Origin: Propionicicella superfundia DSM 22317
GTDB taxonomy: Bacteria > Actinomycetota > Actinomycetes > Propionibacteriales > Propionibacteriaceae
Length of the DNA: 64,000 nucleotides
Assembly (NCBI RefSeq): GCF_000423465.1
Contig: NZ_KE384020.1
Location: 613,671-677,670, forward strand
Direction: 5' to 3'
Shown one piece after another: positions 1,569 through 45,243 of the stretch. The notes beneath the pieces are model-generated. The model saw only the letters and a program-made list of their open reading frames with translations. It was not told the DNA's origin and ran no database searches. The position numbers and the translations under genes are program-made. Position 1 is the stretch's first letter; each line of letters opens with the position of its first letter.

Positions 1569-1728
1569 CGGCGTCGGTGATTCGTGACCCACGCCGCATC
1601 CGACGCATCATGACGTGACGGTCCGGCGTCCACCGCAGGCAACGTCCCGCTCCGGCGTCACGATTCCTACGGGCCATCACCGCCAGGGCGCGATCTGCAC
1701 CGGTGTTCCCGCAGCGCGCGCCCCTCGG

Positions 1729-2292
1729 TCATGCCTGTCGGACAGCGTGGCGGATGTAGATCACGCCGTTGCCGAACCGTCGGTGGTCCAGCAACTCGAG
1801 GTCGAGTCGCATGCCCCGAGGCAGAGCGGGCTTACCGCCACCGACGACGACCGGGCACAGCAGCAGCACGCACTCGTCCACCAGGCCGTGCCGGAATGCC
1901 TCCGCCGCGATCCCCGCGCCGCCGATGCTCAGGTCCGAGCTGGAGGTCTCCTTGAGCCATCGCACCGCGGCGGGGTCGAACCGCCGCTGGATGGTGGTGC
2001 GCGCGGTCGAGACGTCGGCGAGCGACGAGGAGTAGACGACCTTGTCGGTGTCACGCCAGATCCCGGCGTACTCGCGGACCACCGCGGGCTCGTTCGTCAA
2101 CCAGTCATCGCTCTCCCACACCCGCATCGTCTCGTACATGCGCCGTCCGTAGAGCGAGGTGCCGATGCGGCGCTCGTGTTCGTTCCAGAACGCGTGCACG
2201 TCCTCGTCGGGCACGGACCAGTCGAACGAACCGGTCTCGTCCTCGAGGAAGCCGTCGAGTGAGATGTTGGCCGCGTAGATCAGCGTGCCCAT
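1729..2292 (-). CDS. Dihydrofolate reductase family protein (RibD C-terminal-like reductase)
   Basis: A 187-residue protein of the RibD_C/DHFR fold, an NADPH-dependent reductase family with many members of unknown substrate. The N-terminus MGTLIYAANISLDGFLED and the later GGAGIAAEAF segment are typical of the YwjB/YyaP-type stand-alone proteins rather than folate-pathway FolA. The ATG at 2292 follows GGAGGG with good spacing. It is monocistronic and faces away from sdhB. The fold is clear, the physiological substrate is not. Confidence 0.8.
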   Translation of the reverse strand: MGTLIYAANISLDGFLEDETGSFDWSVPDEDVHAFWNEHERRIGTSLYGRRMYETMRVWESDDWLTNEPAVVREYAGIWRDTDKVVYSSSLADVSTARTTIQRRFDPAAVRWLKETSSSDLSIGGAGIAAEAFRHGLVDECVLLLCPVVVGGGKPALPRGMRLDLELLDHRRFGNGVIYIRHAVRQA

Positions 2293-2843
2293 GGAACCCT
2301 CCGTCCGGTCGAGGCTTACAGCGTGCAGCGTTCCGCCGACACCGGCAACGCCCTCCGCCGAGGCCGGGTGCCACCCGCGCCGACGCCGGTCGTTCGCGCA
2401 ACCGGGTCGATCCGGTTCCGCCGGGGCTGTGCGCCGCGTTGCGCGGTCTTTTGTACCGAATGCCGCCGATCGGAGCGACCTGGCCGCCTGGCTGCGGAGT
2501 TATGCACCCATTGAGCCTGTTGAGCCCCCGCATCGGGTACAGAACTCCGCGGTCGAGCTCCGTTCCGGCCTGGATGGTGGCCAGAAGGTACACAATTCCG
2601 CGGATCCCGGCCCACCGACCTCCCCGAGGGGTGAGAAGCACGGGGGTCTTGGCGGCGACCGCCACCGGGCCGCGTCGCCGGCAGAGCGCCGGGCGCTCCA
2701 CCGGTGCGGCGGCCACGACTCCCGGTGTAGACCCACGCGAGATCGTGCCGGATGCGGCCGCTCCCGCCGCTGAACGAGTGGATCCTGGGGCCACCCGGGC
2801 CGGATCCGTCCGGGTGCCTGCCGTGCGAACGCGGGCGGACGAC
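2293..2843. other. Non-coding stretch holding the symmetric 51-bp repeat array
   Basis: About 550 bases between the DHFR-like gene and the TetR gene. Apart from the repeat array at 2443-2601 I see no convincing gene. Frames crossing it lack a start with a ribosome-binding site and do not resemble any family I recognise. Confidence 0.6.
2443..2601. repeat. Four-copy symmetric repeat, GCGGAGTTNTGTACC-like units at 51-bp spacing
   Basis: Two direct copies start at 2443 (GCGGTCTTTTGTACC) and 2494 (GCGGAGTTATGCACC), exactly 51 bp apart. Two inverted copies occupy 2536-2550 and 2587-2601, again 51 bp apart. Both pairs share one dyad centre at about 2522. The 27-bp middle holds TTGAGCC twice. The layout resembles the multiple terminal repeats at both ends of some insertion sequences (IS21 family is known for this), with the transposase genes missing. 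A regulatory array is the alternative. What is visible is the spacing and symmetry; the mobile origin is inference. Confidence 0.6.
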
Positions 2844-3455
2844 TCAGCGCCCTTGGGGCCGAGACGCCGAGGCGAGGGTGAGGAACTCGGTGACGTCGGC
2901 GATCGCGATCCCCGCGATCCCGATCTTCCGCTCGGCGGTGGAGGTGAACACGCTTCCGTCGATCACCGCGGCGACCAGCGTCGCCGAGATGTCGGCGTGC
3001 CCTCCCCCATCCAGCAGCTCGCGGACCTGCCGATCGACGCCGTGGCGCAACTGGACCAGCCGATCCGACAGCGCCGGGCTTTCGCGGCCGCAATCCGCGA
3101 CCCAGCCGATCGTGCCGCGAAGGGCGTCGTCGTCGAGCCGCGGGCCGTCGCAGGCCAGCAGCAGGAGCCTGGCGAGATCCTCCCGGCCGGGGCGACGCTC
3201 CCGAGCCTCCTGGATCGCCGCCTGTGCGGACGCAGACCGGTCCTGGTCGAGACGGTCCACGCACGCGAGCAACAGTGCTTCGCGGGTCTCGTAGTAATAG
3301 CGGATCGCACCGAGCGCGACCCCCGCCTCGGCGGCCACCGAGCGATGGCTCACCGCAGCCATTCCGGAGCGCACCAGGAGCCGGATCGCGGCGTCGAGGA
3401 TTGCTCCCCGTCGGCGAATCGCACGCTCCTGCTCGACCTTCGCCTGTTGTGCCAT
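2844..3455 (-). CDS. TetR/AcrR family transcriptional regulator
   Basis: A 203-residue one-component repressor. The N-terminal helix-turn-helix spans roughly residues 15-60, with ILDAAIRLLVRSGMAAVSHR and then AGVALGAIRYYYETREALL. The remaining helices would form the ligand pocket. The ATG at 3455 gives the conserved family N-terminus; a longer frame to 3539 adds unrelated residues. A palindrome 24 bases upstream (TACGAACGTA) is a likely operator. It lies downstream of, and in line with, the lipocalin-like gene, which it may control. Confidence 0.88.
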   Translation of the reverse strand: MAQQAKVEQERAIRRRGAILDAAIRLLVRSGMAAVSHRSVAAEAGVALGAIRYYYETREALLLACVDRLDQDRSASAQAAIQEARERRPGREDLARLLLLACDGPRLDDDALRGTIGWVADCGRESPALSDRLVQLRHGVDRQVRELLDGGGHADISATLVAAVIDGSVFTSTAERKIGIAGIAIADVTEFLTLASASRPQGR

Positions 3456-3478
3456 CGGACGATGGTAGCCGATGAAGC

Positions 3479-3492
3479 TGTACGAACGTATT
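3479..3492. promoter_or_regulatory. Putative TetR operator
   Basis: TACGAACGTA at 3481-3490 is an inverted repeat of TACG/CGTA around a 2-bp centre, placed just upstream of the TetR start codon. Such short palindromes are usual TetR autoregulatory sites. Only position and symmetry support it. Confidence 0.4.
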
Positions 3493-3599
3493 AGTCCCTG
3501 GACCGGTCCTCCGGGTGACGCCGTACTCACGCTCGCCAACGCGCACGACCCGGTGCTGCTGCCGTCGGCCGTCGCGGCGGGGCCGCTGGGCGCGTGGTC

Positions 3600-4700
3600 C
3601 TACAGCGTCGTCATGCGGCCGTCGGCCTCGACGGCGCCGTGGGCACCGAGCACCGCCCCGAGGACATCCGGGTACGGCTTGATCTGGCGGATGGAGACGC
3701 CGCCCATGCCATTGGTCAGCGTCCTCCTCCGGCCGTCGGTGTAGGTGAAGGCGCCCTGGACGTTGTCCCAGTTGAGGGTTGCGACCGGGGTGCTGGGTGC
3801 TTTGCCGGTGACTCCCCACACCGTGGCTCCGACGACGTCGGAGGAGAGTTCGAGGACGCCGGCCTCGGTCTCGAAGCGGACGCGGTAGCGGGTCGGGATG
3901 AACGCGCCGAGCTGCGGCAGCCAGGCCCACTCCTCGTGCTCGATGGCGAAGTCACCCGCAGGCAGGTACAGGCCGTCGCCGGGCAGGTTGATCGAGAAGT
4001 CCTTCTGGCCGAGTTTCATGTCGTACATCGACCCGTGGGCCTCGTCGAAGTGGAACCACGCCCAGTCCTCCCAGCCGCCGATCTCCGCCGCCGAGGAGTC
4101 CACCGCGACATAGCGTTCGCGAATGCCCGTGCCGACGATGTCCACCTCGCGGCCCGCGATCGTGAGCTTGCCCTCGACCCTGCCGGACCAGTTGTACCCG
4201 TAGGCGATGGAATGCGGGGTGAGGTAGGACGGCGTCTCCTTGCCGTACCACGTCGGGTAGCCCGTGCCCTGGTGCACGAACTCGGCCCTGATGCCCTTCT
4301 CGGCGTCCTCGATGGTGTAGTGCCAACTGTGGTCGTCCCGGCAGATCACCTGGAAGCCGGGCAGCCTCACCGTGACCTCGTGGTCGGAGCGTTCGACCTG
4401 CAGCGTCCCCGCAGGGTGGGTGTGGCGCGCGGCCACGCCGACCGACGGGAAGTCCGCGACCTTGAAGATCGAACCGGGAAGCTGCCGCACGGTGCCGGTC
4501 TCCCAGCTCGCCTCGATGTTCCACATGTCGACGCCTTCCAGCCCGAGGATGAGTGGGGACGTCCCGAACCAGTAGGTGTTGCCGTCGTCGCCGCGGGCGA
4601 CCACGGAGCACAGCCAGTCCAGGAACGGCGCGTCGCGCGCGTCGGCGGGAATGCCGTGGCCCTCCCAGTCCAAAGTGACCTTGGGATCATCGACGATCAT
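3600..4700 (-). CDS. Lipocalin-like AttH/CrtC-family protein
   Basis: A 366-residue, beta-rich soluble protein with no signal peptide. The pattern GYNWSGRVEGKLTIAGREVD, then ERY, then GGWEDWAWFHFDE near residues 165-215 resembles the double-lipocalin fold of AttH and carotenoid 1,2-hydratase CrtC. No carotenoid genes are nearby, so a carotenoid role is not supported; a hydrolase or hydratase acting on a lipid-like substrate is possible. AAGGAG lies 7 bases before the ATG. Recognition rests on motif style only. Confidence 0.5.
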   Translation of the reverse strand: MIVDDPKVTLDWEGHGIPADARDAPFLDWLCSVVARGDDGNTYWFGTSPLILGLEGVDMWNIEASWETGTVRQLPGSIFKVADFPSVGVAARHTHPAGTLQVERSDHEVTVRLPGFQVICRDDHSWHYTIEDAEKGIRAEFVHQGTGYPTWYGKETPSYLTPHSIAYGYNWSGRVEGKLTIAGREVDIVGTGIRERYVAVDSSAAEIGGWEDWAWFHFDEAHGSMYDMKLGQKDFSINLPGDGLYLPAGDFAIEHEEWAWLPQLGAFIPTRYRVRFETEAGVLELSSDVVGATVWGVTGKAPSTPVATLNWDNVQGAFTYTDGRRRTLTNGMGGVSIRQIKPYPDVLGAVLGAHGAVEADGRMTTL

Positions 4701-40809: not shown

Positions 40810-41541
40810 CTACTTCAGGAGGTGCGCGATCTCCCCGGAGAGCTCGTCGCAGATCCACGGCGCGTTGCGGGTGCCGATGCGCGCGACGCCCAGCAGCAGG
40901 CATCCCAGCGCGACCATCGGCGTCCAGAAGCTCCCGGTGCCGGCGACCTTGACCTTCACCGGCTCGGGTGCGGTCTCGCACATGATCTTGACCTGGCTGA
41001 ACTGCGGGCCGCCGTGGCGTCCGGTGGACGACTTGACCCAGTCGGCGCCCGCCTCGCTGGCCAGTTCCACCGCCGTCTTGATCTGGTCGTCGGTCAGCAA
41101 CTGCACCTCGAGGATCGCCTTGCACTCCGCCCCGCCGTCGTGAGCGACCTTCACGACCTCGGCGATGTCCTTCTTGTAGAGGTCGTAGTCGCCGCTCTTG
41201 AGCGCGCCGTGGTTGGCGACCATGTCCACCACCCACGGCTTCCCGCTCAGCGCCGTGACACCCTCCTTCGCTTCCGCGACCTTCATGGCCGTGGAGACCG
41301 CACCGAACGGGAAGGCCAGCACCCACCCGGTCTCGATGCCCGTCCCTGCGAGCTGCTCCGAGACGTAGGGGGCCCAGAAGGTATTGGTGTGGAATCCCTT
41401 GAATCCGTACTGCTTGGCGATCTCGATACCGTGGTCGATGTCGTCCTGGCTCGCGTCGGAGTTCAGGACCGAGAAGTCCATCGCCTGGGCAAGCCCCTCC
41501 TTCGAGAGATCAAGGTCCTTCACGTGGATCGGCGCGGGCAT
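40810..41541 (-). CDS. DeoC/LacD-type class I aldolase
   Basis: A 243-residue TIM-barrel protein resembling deoxyribose-phosphate aldolase. It has FPFGAVSTAMKVAE near 78, KAILEVQLLTDDQI near 140, Lys in DWVKSSTGRHG near 167 as the Schiff-base candidate, and a second Lys in VKVKVAGTG. It is more divergent than canonical DeoC, so another aldehyde substrate is possible. ATG 41541 has GGAGAG upstream. An AT-rich spot with TGTACATGTA (41642-41651) is the likely promoter area. Its stop is 3 bases from the priA stop, convergent. Confidence 0.78.
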   Translation of the reverse strand: MPAPIHVKDLDLSKEGLAQAMDFSVLNSDASQDDIDHGIEIAKQYGFKGFHTNTFWAPYVSEQLAGTGIETGWVLAFPFGAVSTAMKVAEAKEGVTALSGKPWVVDMVANHGALKSGDYDLYKKDIAEVVKVAHDGGAECKAILEVQLLTDDQIKTAVELASEAGADWVKSSTGRHGGPQFSQVKIMCETAPEPVKVKVAGTGSFWTPMVALGCLLLGVARIGTRNAPWICDELSGEIAHLLK

Positions 41542-41728
41542 GGGTACCACTCTCCTCTGATGTCGGTGTCTCTCCCGAGACGGACGCGCGGCCTGCGATG
41601 GCCGGCGGAGACGCCACTCTGCGTGTCCGTCGCTCGTTGCCTGTACATGTATAGCCCAGTTTAGTCATGCCGATCCCGCGACCCACAGCCCTGCGCGCTG
41701 ACTGTGGACGTCGTCCGGCGCGCGGCTC

Positions 41729-42802
41729 CTACCCGGTCTCGTCGAGACGACGGCCCTCCCGGATCAGCCGATCGGCCGGCAGGCGCACACTGCGCCGCGC
41801 CGTGGCCTCCGAGGCCCAGCCGATCCGCAAGACGATGGCAGGATGCTCACCGACCGCCGCCGGGAAGACGGCGTCGAAGTCGTCCTGCTGCGCGCGGATC
41901 ACCTCTGCGTAGCGGCCGAAGGTCTCCGGCTCGACGGCCGCCTTCGTGAGGTACTGCGGCATGACTCCGTGCGGCTGGACAGCCAGCCCCCGAGCGGTCG
42001 CGGCGAGCCAGATCCGCTCCATCGCCCGCCCGGCCTCGACGTAGCCGGCGGCATCCGCGCGTCGTGCGGTGACCAGACACAGGGCGCCCGCATGCCGCAG
42101 CCGGTCGGCCAGACGGCGCGCGACCAGCCGCCCGATTCCCAGCCTGCTCACGAGCCCGACGACAGGGGCGTGCCTCATCAATCGGCCCATCCAGACGAGA
42201 ACGCCGGGCACCCCGAGCGCTTCGAACTCCAGCCCGAACCCGGTGGTCTCGATGTCGTGCCGGGTGAACCGCAGGATCTCGAAGAGCTCGTCGTGCAGCG
42301 GTCTGTGCTCCAGCCGGATGTAGGTCGAAGCGGCGTCCATCGTGGCCATCCGGTCGAGTGCGCCGCGCCCGGCGGCCCAGTGGACGCCCGCAGCAAGCCC
42401 GGCGGCTGCACCGGTGAGTGCCGCCACAATCCCGGTATCGAGCGGTCGGTCCTCGAAGGCGCCCCGGTCGGTCCGGCGCTCGTGGAGCACCGACGCCAGC
42501 GCGTCGCCCTCGCCGGCCCGCCCCAGCCGGACGATCACGGGCGTGTCGCGGCCGAGCGCTCCGGGCTCGACCTCCGGGTCGCGGCCCGCGTGGCGGGCGG
42601 CGATCACGAGGTTCTCGACCGCAGCGCCGAGGCCGACCCAGGCGAACATCGCGTTCACATCCGTCGGGAGCACACGGCTCGGCTCCAGCCGTGCCTCGAT
42701 CGCGTCCCCCGCCCGGGCGAACACCCATGCCTGCATGTTGTCCGGAGACGGAGCGCGTCGCGCGGCCGCGATCAGGTCGGCGAACAGCCCGTCGGGGATC
42801 AT
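41729..42802 (-). CDS. Nitroreductase-superfamily protein coupled to the acyltransferase-synthase fusion
   Basis: A 357-residue protein with nitroreductase-like sequence. The start has LIAAARRAPSPDNMQAWVFA near residue 8, and later parts include AFAWVGLGAAVENLVIAARH-like text near 47 and GHPAIVLRIGWAS-like text near the end. These features suggest an FMN-binding NADPH oxidoreductase. It is longer than simple nitroreductases. ATG 42802 overlaps the stop of the upstream fusion gene (ATGA), so the products are made together. The substrate is unknown and may be the product of the fusion enzyme. Confidence 0.72.
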   Translation of the reverse strand: MIPDGLFADLIAAARRAPSPDNMQAWVFARAGDAIEARLEPSRVLPTDVNAMFAWVGLGAAVENLVIAARHAGRDPEVEPGALGRDTPVIVRLGRAGEGDALASVLHERRTDRGAFEDRPLDTGIVAALTGAAAGLAAGVHWAAGRGALDRMATMDAASTYIRLEHRPLHDELFEILRFTRHDIETTGFGLEFEALGVPGVLVWMGRLMRHAPVVGLVSRLGIGRLVARRLADRLRHAGALCLVTARRADAAGYVEAGRAMERIWLAATARGLAVQPHGVMPQYLTKAAVEPETFGRYAEVIRAQQDDFDAVFPAAVGEHPAIVLRIGWASEATARRSVRLPADRLIREGRRLDETG

Positions 42803-45243
42803 GGCCGGGCCTCCCCCGCCGGCCAGGTCGGGGTGCGTGCCGCGGCGAAAACGTCGAGGGCGTGGCGCAGCATCTCCTCGGTGTGCGTCGCCATCAGCGA
42901 GACCCGCAACAGTTCCTGGTTCCTCGGGACCGCCGGGTGGGTGACCGGGTTGACGAAGACACCGCCGTCGAGCAGCCGGTGATACGCCGCGAGGGTGAGC
43001 AGCTCGTCGCCGCAGAAGACCGGCAGGATGGCATTGCCGTGGTCGTCCACCCGGTACCCCAGGTCTCGCAGGCCGGCCGCCAGGAACCGGGCGTTCGCGA
43101 GCAGGCGCCGGCGCCGCTCGGGCTCGGCCTCGACGACTCCCAGCGCCGCGAGCGCCGCCGCAACCGACGCCGGGGGCAGGCTCGCCGAGAACAGATGGGC
43201 ACGCGCGGTGTGCCGCAGCGTGTCGATCACCTTGCGGTCGCCCGCCACGAAGCCGCCGATCGACGCCAAGGACTTGCTCATCGTGCCCATCACGAGATCG
43301 ACCTGATCGAGCATCCCGAAATGCTCGGCCACGCCGCGTCCTCCCGGCCCCATCACGCCGATCGCGTGGGACTCGTCCAGCAGCAGTCGCGCATGGCGGG
43401 CCCGGACGAGCCGCACGATCTCGGGAAGGTCGACCACCGTGCCCTCCATGCTGAACAGCGAATCGGTGACGACCAGCGTCCGCCGGCCCGGCCGCCGCTC
43501 GAGCGCCTCCGCGAGCGCCGCGGTGTCGGCATGGCGGTAGCGCACCACCGTGGCACCCGCCAGGCGTGCCCCGTCGATCAGGCTGGCGTGGCTGCGCTCG
43601 TCCATCACGACGACGCCGTCCCTCCCGGCGAGCGCCGAGACGACCCCCACATTCGTCTGATACCCGGTCGAGCAGACCAGCGCGTCGTCCTTGCCGAGGA
43701 ACCGGGCCAGTCGATCCGCGAGGTCGACGTGCAGGTCCAGCGTGCCGTTCAGCATCGGAGACCCCGAGCACCCGCTGCCGTACCGGGCGAGCGCCGCGCT
43801 CGCCGCCGCCGTGATCCGCGGGTGGGTCGCGAGGCCGAGGTAGCAGTTGGTTCCGAGCATCACCACCGGGCGTCCGTCGTGGACCACGACCGGCTCCTGC
43901 GCGCTTTCGAACACCGGGCGGAACGGATACAGGCCGGCGACGCGTGCGACGTCCGCGCGGGTGTAGCCGCACGGCCTCACGAACGGGTCGGCAGGATCCG
44001 CCGGGTCGGCGAACAGCCGGGCCGCGTCGGCAGGCTGCGGGCGGGCGGCCACGGTCGCCGGGTCGGAGCTCGCGAAGGCGCGGTGGCGGTTCTCCGGCTG
44101 GGGGATGCCGGTGCGGAAGAGCTCCGCGTAGGCCGCGCTGTGATCCGGGTCGCGGACGGCCTTGACCAGGAACACGACCGGGTGCAGCTCGGCGCCCAGC
44201 GACGTCTTGGCATCGTAGGTGGTGATGCCGAGGTTCAGCGACGTCTTGCCGAGGTCACAGGCCACCCGGATCACCTCCAGGAACAGGTTCGGGTACAGCG
44301 CGTAGTCGTCTCGGACGCTGCCGTCGATTCCCTCCGCCACGCCGAAGTAGTCCCCGTCGCCGACCAGGCCCAGGCCGAACGCGACGATCTCGCCGTCCAG
44401 CTTGATCGCGACGACGTGACTGCGTCCGGGCAGGTGCCGCGCCATCGCCTCGAAGTAGGCCGGGGTGAGGACCTCGTGCTCGTACTCGCCGTGCCGCTCG
44501 GCGACCTGCCGCCACAGCGCCGCCAGCCGGTCGGCATGAGGTGCGTAGTCGTCGATCACCTCGACGCTGATGCCCGGCGCGTGCAGGGCGTCCTGCACCC
44601 GACGGATGCGCTGTCGCTTCTTGTGCTTCAGCGCGGCGAGGTACCCGTCGAAATCCGGCCACCGCAGGGCGAGACGGGCGATCGGGAAACCGAGCACCGG
44701 CTGGTAGCCCGCCGCCCGGACGGCGTGGAAGTCCGGATACCGCTCGACCGGAATGTCCCGCACGACGATCAGGTCGGCGCCCTCGATCCGGGCGAGCTCG
44801 TCGAGCGTCGGCCCGAGAGCGCCCAGGAACGCCTCGCGATGCTCGCCGGGCGCCTCGATCGTCGCACCGAGCGACGCCAGGTGCCCCACCTCCAGCAGCC
44901 GGAACCTCATGAAGTCCGGTCGCCATTCCTTCACGGCGGCCAGCACCTCGGGCGACGTCGCGGTCGTGAGCTTCGTGAGGTCCATGTCGAACGCGAAGCA
45001 CGAGGCGATGCCCACCGCCTCGCCGGCGCAGGAACCGATCAGATAGTGAGGGTGCAGGTCGTTGATGCCGGACGCCTCGACAGCACGGAGGTGCCCCGAC
45101 TCGAGACCGACCGCGGTCGTCGAGGCAAGCCCGTCCCACACGGCGACGGGGACGTCCACGATGGACGTGTAGCGGGCGATCGTGATGTCGCCGGCACGCG
45201 CGGGCCGGCCGATGACCACCGGGTCGGCAGCAAGGATGCTCAC
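42799..45243 (-). CDS. Fusion of BioF2-type N-acyltransferase and alpha-oxoamine synthase
   Basis: An 814-residue, two-domain protein. Residues about 20-390 are a GNAT-like acyltransferase of the BioF2/FemX style (FDGYLAALKHKKRQRIRRVQ near 205, AIKLDGEIVAFGLGLVGDGD near 285). Residues about 410-810 are a PLP-dependent alpha-oxoamine synthase, with GTNCYLGLATHP, GCSGSPMLNGTLDLH, DESHAIGVMGPGGRG with His626, and the Schiff-base Lys657 in TMSKSLASIGG. Such synthases condense an acyl-CoA with an amino acid. Joined to an N-acyltransferase, the product could be an N-acylated aminoketone. GTG 45243 is the start. No biotin genes adjoin. Confidence 0.85.
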   Translation of the reverse strand: MSILAADPVVIGRPARAGDITIARYTSIVDVPVAVWDGLASTTAVGLESGHLRAVEASGINDLHPHYLIGSCAGEAVGIASCFAFDMDLTKLTTATSPEVLAAVKEWRPDFMRFRLLEVGHLASLGATIEAPGEHREAFLGALGPTLDELARIEGADLIVVRDIPVERYPDFHAVRAAGYQPVLGFPIARLALRWPDFDGYLAALKHKKRQRIRRVQDALHAPGISVEVIDDYAPHADRLAALWRQVAERHGEYEHEVLTPAYFEAMARHLPGRSHVVAIKLDGEIVAFGLGLVGDGDYFGVAEGIDGSVRDDYALYPNLFLEVIRVACDLGKTSLNLGITTYDAKTSLGAELHPVVFLVKAVRDPDHSAAYAELFRTGIPQPENRHRAFASSDPATVAARPQPADAARLFADPADPADPFVRPCGYTRADVARVAGLYPFRPVFESAQEPVVVHDGRPVVMLGTNCYLGLATHPRITAAASAALARYGSGCSGSPMLNGTLDLHVDLADRLARFLGKDDALVCSTGYQTNVGVVSALAGRDGVVVMDERSHASLIDGARLAGATVVRYRHADTAALAEALERRPGRRTLVVTDSLFSMEGTVVDLPEIVRLVRARHARLLLDESHAIGVMGPGGRGVAEHFGMLDQVDLVMGTMSKSLASIGGFVAGDRKVIDTLRHTARAHLFSASLPPASVAAALAALGVVEAEPERRRRLLANARFLAAGLRDLGYRVDDHGNAILPVFCGDELLTLAAYHRLLDGGVFVNPVTHPAVPRNQELLRVSLMATHTEEMLRHALDVFAAARTPTWPAGEARP

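Follow-up and report, generated by a model that had tools for sequence, protein, structure and literature searches.

Gene organisation at the locus

The window is a 64,000-nt stretch of the Propionicicella superfundia DSM 22317 genome, and two overlapping genes on its minus strand are considered here. The first, at positions 42799 to 45243, begins with a GTG codon and encodes an 814-residue protein in which a FemX-like tandem-GNAT domain precedes an alpha-oxoamine synthase (AOS). The original prediction had these coordinates right and left the strand unstated. The second gene, at 41729 to 42802, encodes a nitroreductase-like FMN protein of 357 aa. The stop codon of the first and the start codon of the second share an ATGA sequence of 4 nt (42799 to 42802, minus strand); an overlap of the two genes had been noted in the original prediction. 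A deoxyribose-phosphate aldolase gene (40810 to 41550, minus strand; above the TIGR00126 cut-off) lies downstream of the pair, with no tie to it.

What are the parts of the fusion protein? The N-terminal acyltransferase-like part (residues 1-424; 43972 to 45243, minus strand) is recognised by a Pfam match, a structure model and a fold match to FemX (1ne9). Its core, residues 208-346 (44206-44622, minus strand), matches Acetyltransf_6 (PF13480, 1e-12), and FemAB_like matches residues 195-301 (2e-9). The C-terminal part (residues 425-814; 42802 to 43971, minus strand) is assigned to the AOS family by profile and structure matches and by phylogeny. AOS models and solved AOS structures place the AOS region at residues ~427-803, with the structure matches spanning residues 433-798 and headed by the Sphingobacterium serine palmitoyltransferase (SPT) 3a2b (356 bits). 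The protein thus has an Acetyltransf_6-type domain and then an AOS in a single polypeptide, which is the BioF2-type architecture; GNAT-AOS fusions of this kind are already in databases under the name BioF2, without an assigned function. An AlphaFold model of the full-length fusion is poor (pLDDT 46), and we therefore make no statement on domain arrangement.

Distribution and selection

Relatives of the fusion occur in two other actinobacterial metagenome-assembled genomes (MAGs), one Bacteroidetes MAG and two putative Mycobacterium genomes. A groundwater MAG from another genus of the same family (G867) has the same fusion, split over two overlapping contig ends; the halves were joined via an exact 46-residue overlap. 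A scan of 84,980 species recovered G867 again, together with a sediment actinobacterial MAG (L045; 66% in the N-terminal half and 82% in the C-terminal half) and a Bacteroidetes MAG of 36% GC (L046; 50% and 65%, respectively). In L046, the fusion lies at 1601-3834 of a low-coverage contig that stops within the gene. With no further match in 295 genomes of its class, the L046 copy may reflect transfer or mis-binning. The two remaining relatives, from a genus that we designate g40, are full length and 40-41% identical. One g40 genome (G990) has the neighbourhood korAB-MFS-clpX-mmuM, which we take to be the gene order of H37Rv, and we infer that g40 is Mycobacterium. No fusions beyond these were found in 395 genomes of the class and 397 of the phylum, no phage or viral relatives were found, and no plasmid carries a full-length fusion at 80% query coverage. 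Defence-system models do not match the locus.

Every part of the locus is under purifying selection: dN/dS is ~0.27 for the fusion as a whole, 0.32 and 0.20 when the two halves are taken separately, and 0.35 for the nitroreductase gene. The whole architecture in five other genomes, together with dN/dS values of about 0.2-0.35, shows at the level of sequence that the 814-residue acyltransferase-AOS fusion described in the original prediction is real and old rather than a chance joining, with its domains kept together across two phyla.

The oxoamine synthase half

Alignment with SPT indicates that the residues binding PLP and substrate are retained. The PLP Schiff-base lysine, SPT Lys244, corresponds to Lys657 (codon at 43273 to 43275), and SPT His213 corresponds to His626 (43366 to 43368), which forms part of a D623-x-x-H626 motif; the intact Lys657/His626 site of the original prediction is therefore upheld. 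The PLP-stacking His138 of SPT is His552 (43588 to 43590; all codons on the minus strand), and SPT Ser81 is Ser495. Asp623 and Arg780 are also intact, the latter being invariant. As judged from the alignment, this half is a complete AOS with the catalytic Lys, His, Asp and Arg present.

Is the enzyme a biotin-pathway BioF? The shared name BioF2 and a 361-bit match to the bioF model favour this reading, but several observations make it highly improbable. First, 361 bits is below the bioF cut-off of 426. Second, bioB exceeds its cut-off in 0 of 4 fusion genomes, as compared with 7 of 14 control genomes. Third, the genome of the window encodes no AOS besides the fusion and no separate BioF. Fourth, Rv0032, the BioF2 of Mycobacterium tuberculosis, fails to complement a bioF mutant (PMC12910592). 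Biotin synthesis was rejected as a function on the absence of bioB and of a second AOS in the genome.

The six fusion AOS domains form a single clade (support 99/99) on a branch with SPTs and AOS proteins from sphingolipid clusters, with BioF and Kbl outside. This agrees with the proposal that the fusion is nearer to SPT than to BioF, although the deep split has support of only 79/82. The highest-scoring model is likewise an SPT model, at 443 bits. Nonetheless, the fusion AOS misses all of the curated SPT equivalog cut-offs (443/640, 362/500 and 304/670 bits), and for that reason we do not name it an SPT. The Parabacteroides and E. coli SPTs exceed their own equivalog cut-offs. A further peculiarity is Pro496 (codon at 43756 to 43758, minus strand), found in 6/6 fusion AOS domains. 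Nearly all others compared have Arg at this position, and E. coli BioF has Gly. Pro496 directly follows Ser495, and the corresponding SPT residue is Arg82; SPT Ser81 presumably contacts the substrate carboxylate. Since the Arg beside the serine-binding residue of SPT is replaced by Pro in the whole clade, the amino-acid substrate may be other than serine. Both the missed cut-offs and the clade-specific Pro496 would also fit an AOS whose substrates are not SPT-like at all, such as a short acyl-CoA with glycine, alanine or another amino acid, with a small signal as the product, or a heterocycle that the flavoenzyme completes. We regard this as unlikely, given that SPTs are the closest characterised relatives by both score and phylogeny.

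The N-terminal domain

An AlphaFold model of the N-terminal domain built from four sequences is of medium confidence (pLDDT 69, pTM 0.68). Its best fold matches in Foldseek are FemX (1ne9; E 5.7e-12, TM 0.52), MprF and tRNA-dependent peptide synthases, with N-myristoyltransferases also represented. On this model, the domain is FemX-like, with two GNAT folds in tandem. No canonical GNAT CoA loop is found at a consistent position, and the same inconsistency of position is seen in true ceramide synthases.

The donor of FemX-type domains is often aminoacyl-tRNA and not acyl-CoA. The domain could transfer an amino acid onto the aminoketone or onto another amine, such that the product would be a short peptide-lipid and not an N-acyl compound. 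The top fold matches point this way, but enzymes that use acyl-CoA, the N-myristoyltransferases among them, also match this tandem-GNAT fold, and the model is only of medium confidence; we consider such a transfer unlikely.

Is the domain related to the known bacterial ceramide N-acyltransferase? That family was sampled through E. coli YghO, given as the counterpart of Caulobacter CC_1154 in PMC9386255, and through the GNATs of AOS-GNAT-SDR clusters in Rubrobacter and Streptomyces; these proteins are mutually 33-38% identical. None has a BLAST match to the N-terminal domain, and the profile match is at the level of GNATs only (hhalign probability 15.6%). Homology to bacterial ceramide synthase was therefore rejected, and the parallel with the known ceramide acyltransferase drawn in the original prediction does not hold beyond general GNAT similarity. 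No GNAT of the ceramide-synthase type is present in the genome of the window, in G867, in L045 or in either putative mycobacterial fusion genome; L046 has its own copy. In the five genomes lacking this protein, any N-acylation step would fall to the fused domain or to an unrelated enzyme.

A plasmid of Rubrobacter radiotolerans (NZ_CP007515.1, 7995-11362) carries genes for an SPT-like protein, a bCerS-type GNAT and a CerR-like SDR, followed by a gene of the LTA-synthase family, and is thus a complete, plasmid-borne ceramide-type cluster in an actinobacterium. A plasmid of Streptomyces sp. NBC_01001 (3938-8464) has an operon-like arrangement of AOS, bCerS-type GNAT, SDR and condensation-domain genes, which suggests that a ceramide-like moiety is coupled to a peptide or polyketide. 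Another kind of fusion, in which one 1345-aa protein combines an SDR domain and an AOS, is encoded beside a ketosynthase-domain gene on a plasmid of Streptomyces sp. NBC_00158 (3085-7122). Lastly, a Roseomonas mucosa plasmid has an ACP-AOS pair (L070, 1696-4768) within a polysaccharide-biosynthesis region.

Partner genes

The 357-aa protein encoded by the coupled gene is, from its profile matches, a predicted nitroreductase-like flavin (FMN) protein. It has a Nitroreductase Pfam domain (51 bits; cut-off 23.5), scores under the cut-offs of both NF005901 (170 bits) and NF047509 (141 bits), and weakly matches the Acg structure 2ymv; its closest relatives are Acg and the C-terminal part of the Rv1355c family. 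The gene is immediately downstream of the fusion in 3/3 actinobacterial cases, in otherwise unrelated genomic surroundings, and among 199 genomes of the family it is confined to the two with the fusion. The pairing therefore holds in three actinobacterial genomes and does not extend to the mycobacterial fusions, which have no such gene beside them, or to the fragmentary MAG L046, in which none was found. Genes for a ceramide reductase or for lipid transport are absent from the vicinity of the fusion, which counts against a ceramide-type function.

In the putative mycobacterial genomes, the genes downstream of the fusion instead encode an acyl carrier protein (ACP), a SnoaL-like protein and a fatty-acyl-AMP ligase. 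This ACP and this ligase have homologues, AcpR and AasR, in the SPT cluster of E. coli BL21, and acyl-AcpR is the substrate of the Caulobacter SPT (PMC9386255). The cassette is at L063 9097-13842, where it sits between korAB and the MFS-clpX block, and at L064 6520-11262; because the chromosomal sites differ, the cassette appears to be mobile.

The ACP and ligase genes downstream of the mycobacterial fusions are consistent with a loading or hand-over role for the N-terminal domain, which would pass the acyl group on to the AOS, as the GNAT of SxtA reportedly does, in which case the product would keep a free amine. This is improbable, however, since no ACP or ligase gene adjoins the fusion in the family of the window, and Rhodobacterial SPTs accept acyl-AcpR directly without any such domain (PMC9386255).

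A proposed function

What might the locus make? The interpretation that we favour, with the odds of its being right or wrong evenly balanced, is that of a bifunctional enzyme of the BioF2 type: an acyl thioester and an amino acid would be condensed and the product N-acylated by the one protein, after which the flavoprotein would modify it. Specifically, the AOS half would join an ACP- or CoA-bound fatty-acyl thioester to an amino acid, serine being the most likely, and form a 2-amino-3-ketone. The N-terminal half of the same polypeptide would acylate the free amine to give an N-acyl aminoketone of the 3-oxo-ceramide type, sparing the release of a reactive aminoketone. In the family of the window organism, the translationally coupled FMN protein could then reduce, oxidise or desaturate the product, while the mycobacterial relatives would instead load the substrate via an ACP and a fatty-acyl-AMP ligase of their own. 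What results is probably an uncommon lipid or a signal and not biotin. We propose this order of steps, and consider a fusion of the two activities chemically sensible, because SPT and the N-acyltransferase of Caulobacter are both cytoplasmic and act ahead of ketone reduction (PMC11087976).

A bolder version, which we put forward tentatively and as less likely true than false, is that both initial committed steps of a ceramide-like pathway are carried out by one polypeptide, whose N-acyltransferase has no kinship with the known bacterial enzyme, and that a nitroreductase-type flavoprotein takes the place of the usual ketone reductase. This would be an independent sphingolipid-like route whose core is shared with the BioF2 operon of M. 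tuberculosis.

No SPT-acyltransferase fusion is described in the literature searched, which was mostly open access, and the nitroreductase pairing, the spread to Bacteroidetes and the shared Pro496 are likewise undescribed there. The relatives connect the BioF2 architecture to SPT, to an ACP and acyl-AMP ligase pair like that of E. coli BL21, and to a new flavoprotein partner. What had been misannotated as a biotin gene thereby becomes the basis of a concrete lipid-pathway proposal that can be tested on an actinobacterial enzyme.

Comparison with known systems

The bacterial SPTs (Sphingobacterium 3a2b, Parabacteroides and E. coli BL21) share with the fusion the PLP-site residues and a GTFSKS-type lysine motif, and the Parabacteroides enzyme is 47% identical to the fusion AOS over 366 aa. 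The fusion differs from them in its acyltransferase domain, in having Pro for Arg82 and in scoring below all SPT equivalog cut-offs. The ceramide synthases bCerS/CerS (Caulobacter CC_1154, E. coli YghO) have a GNAT-type fold like that of the N-terminal domain, and both they and the fused domain would N-acylate an SPT product; however, they belong to another family and are encoded by a separate gene in known clusters. The tandem-GNAT transferases FemX and MprF resemble the N-terminal model in overall fold, at an identity of about 16%. For the partner protein, the nearest parallels are the nitroreductase-like FMN proteins of the Acg and Rv1355c type, which have the Nitroreductase Pfam domain in common with it; Rv1355c has a ThiF half that the 357-aa protein does not, and the latter scores under both family cut-offs.

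Another close system is BioF2 of M. tuberculosis (Rv0032), described as an AOS that resembles SPT most, with an extra N-terminal domain and no BioF activity, and singled out as deserving characterisation (PMC12910592). Rv0032 and its neighbour Rv0033 (BioF/AcpA) appear in a list of horizontally acquired gene pairs (PMC3087520). Mycobacteria have no reported sphingolipids, which counts against the favoured function, and Rv0032 is said to be confined to the M. tuberculosis complex (PMC12910592), a restriction at odds with the two 5.6-Mb fusion genomes if these are indeed Mycobacterium. The likeness to Rv0032 is drawn from its published description and from these two genomes, whose fusions match the two-domain architecture of the window protein. 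The partners differ: the gene in the window is paired with a nitroreductase gene, whereas the mycobacterial fusions are accompanied by an ACP, a SnoaL-like protein and an acyl-AMP ligase.
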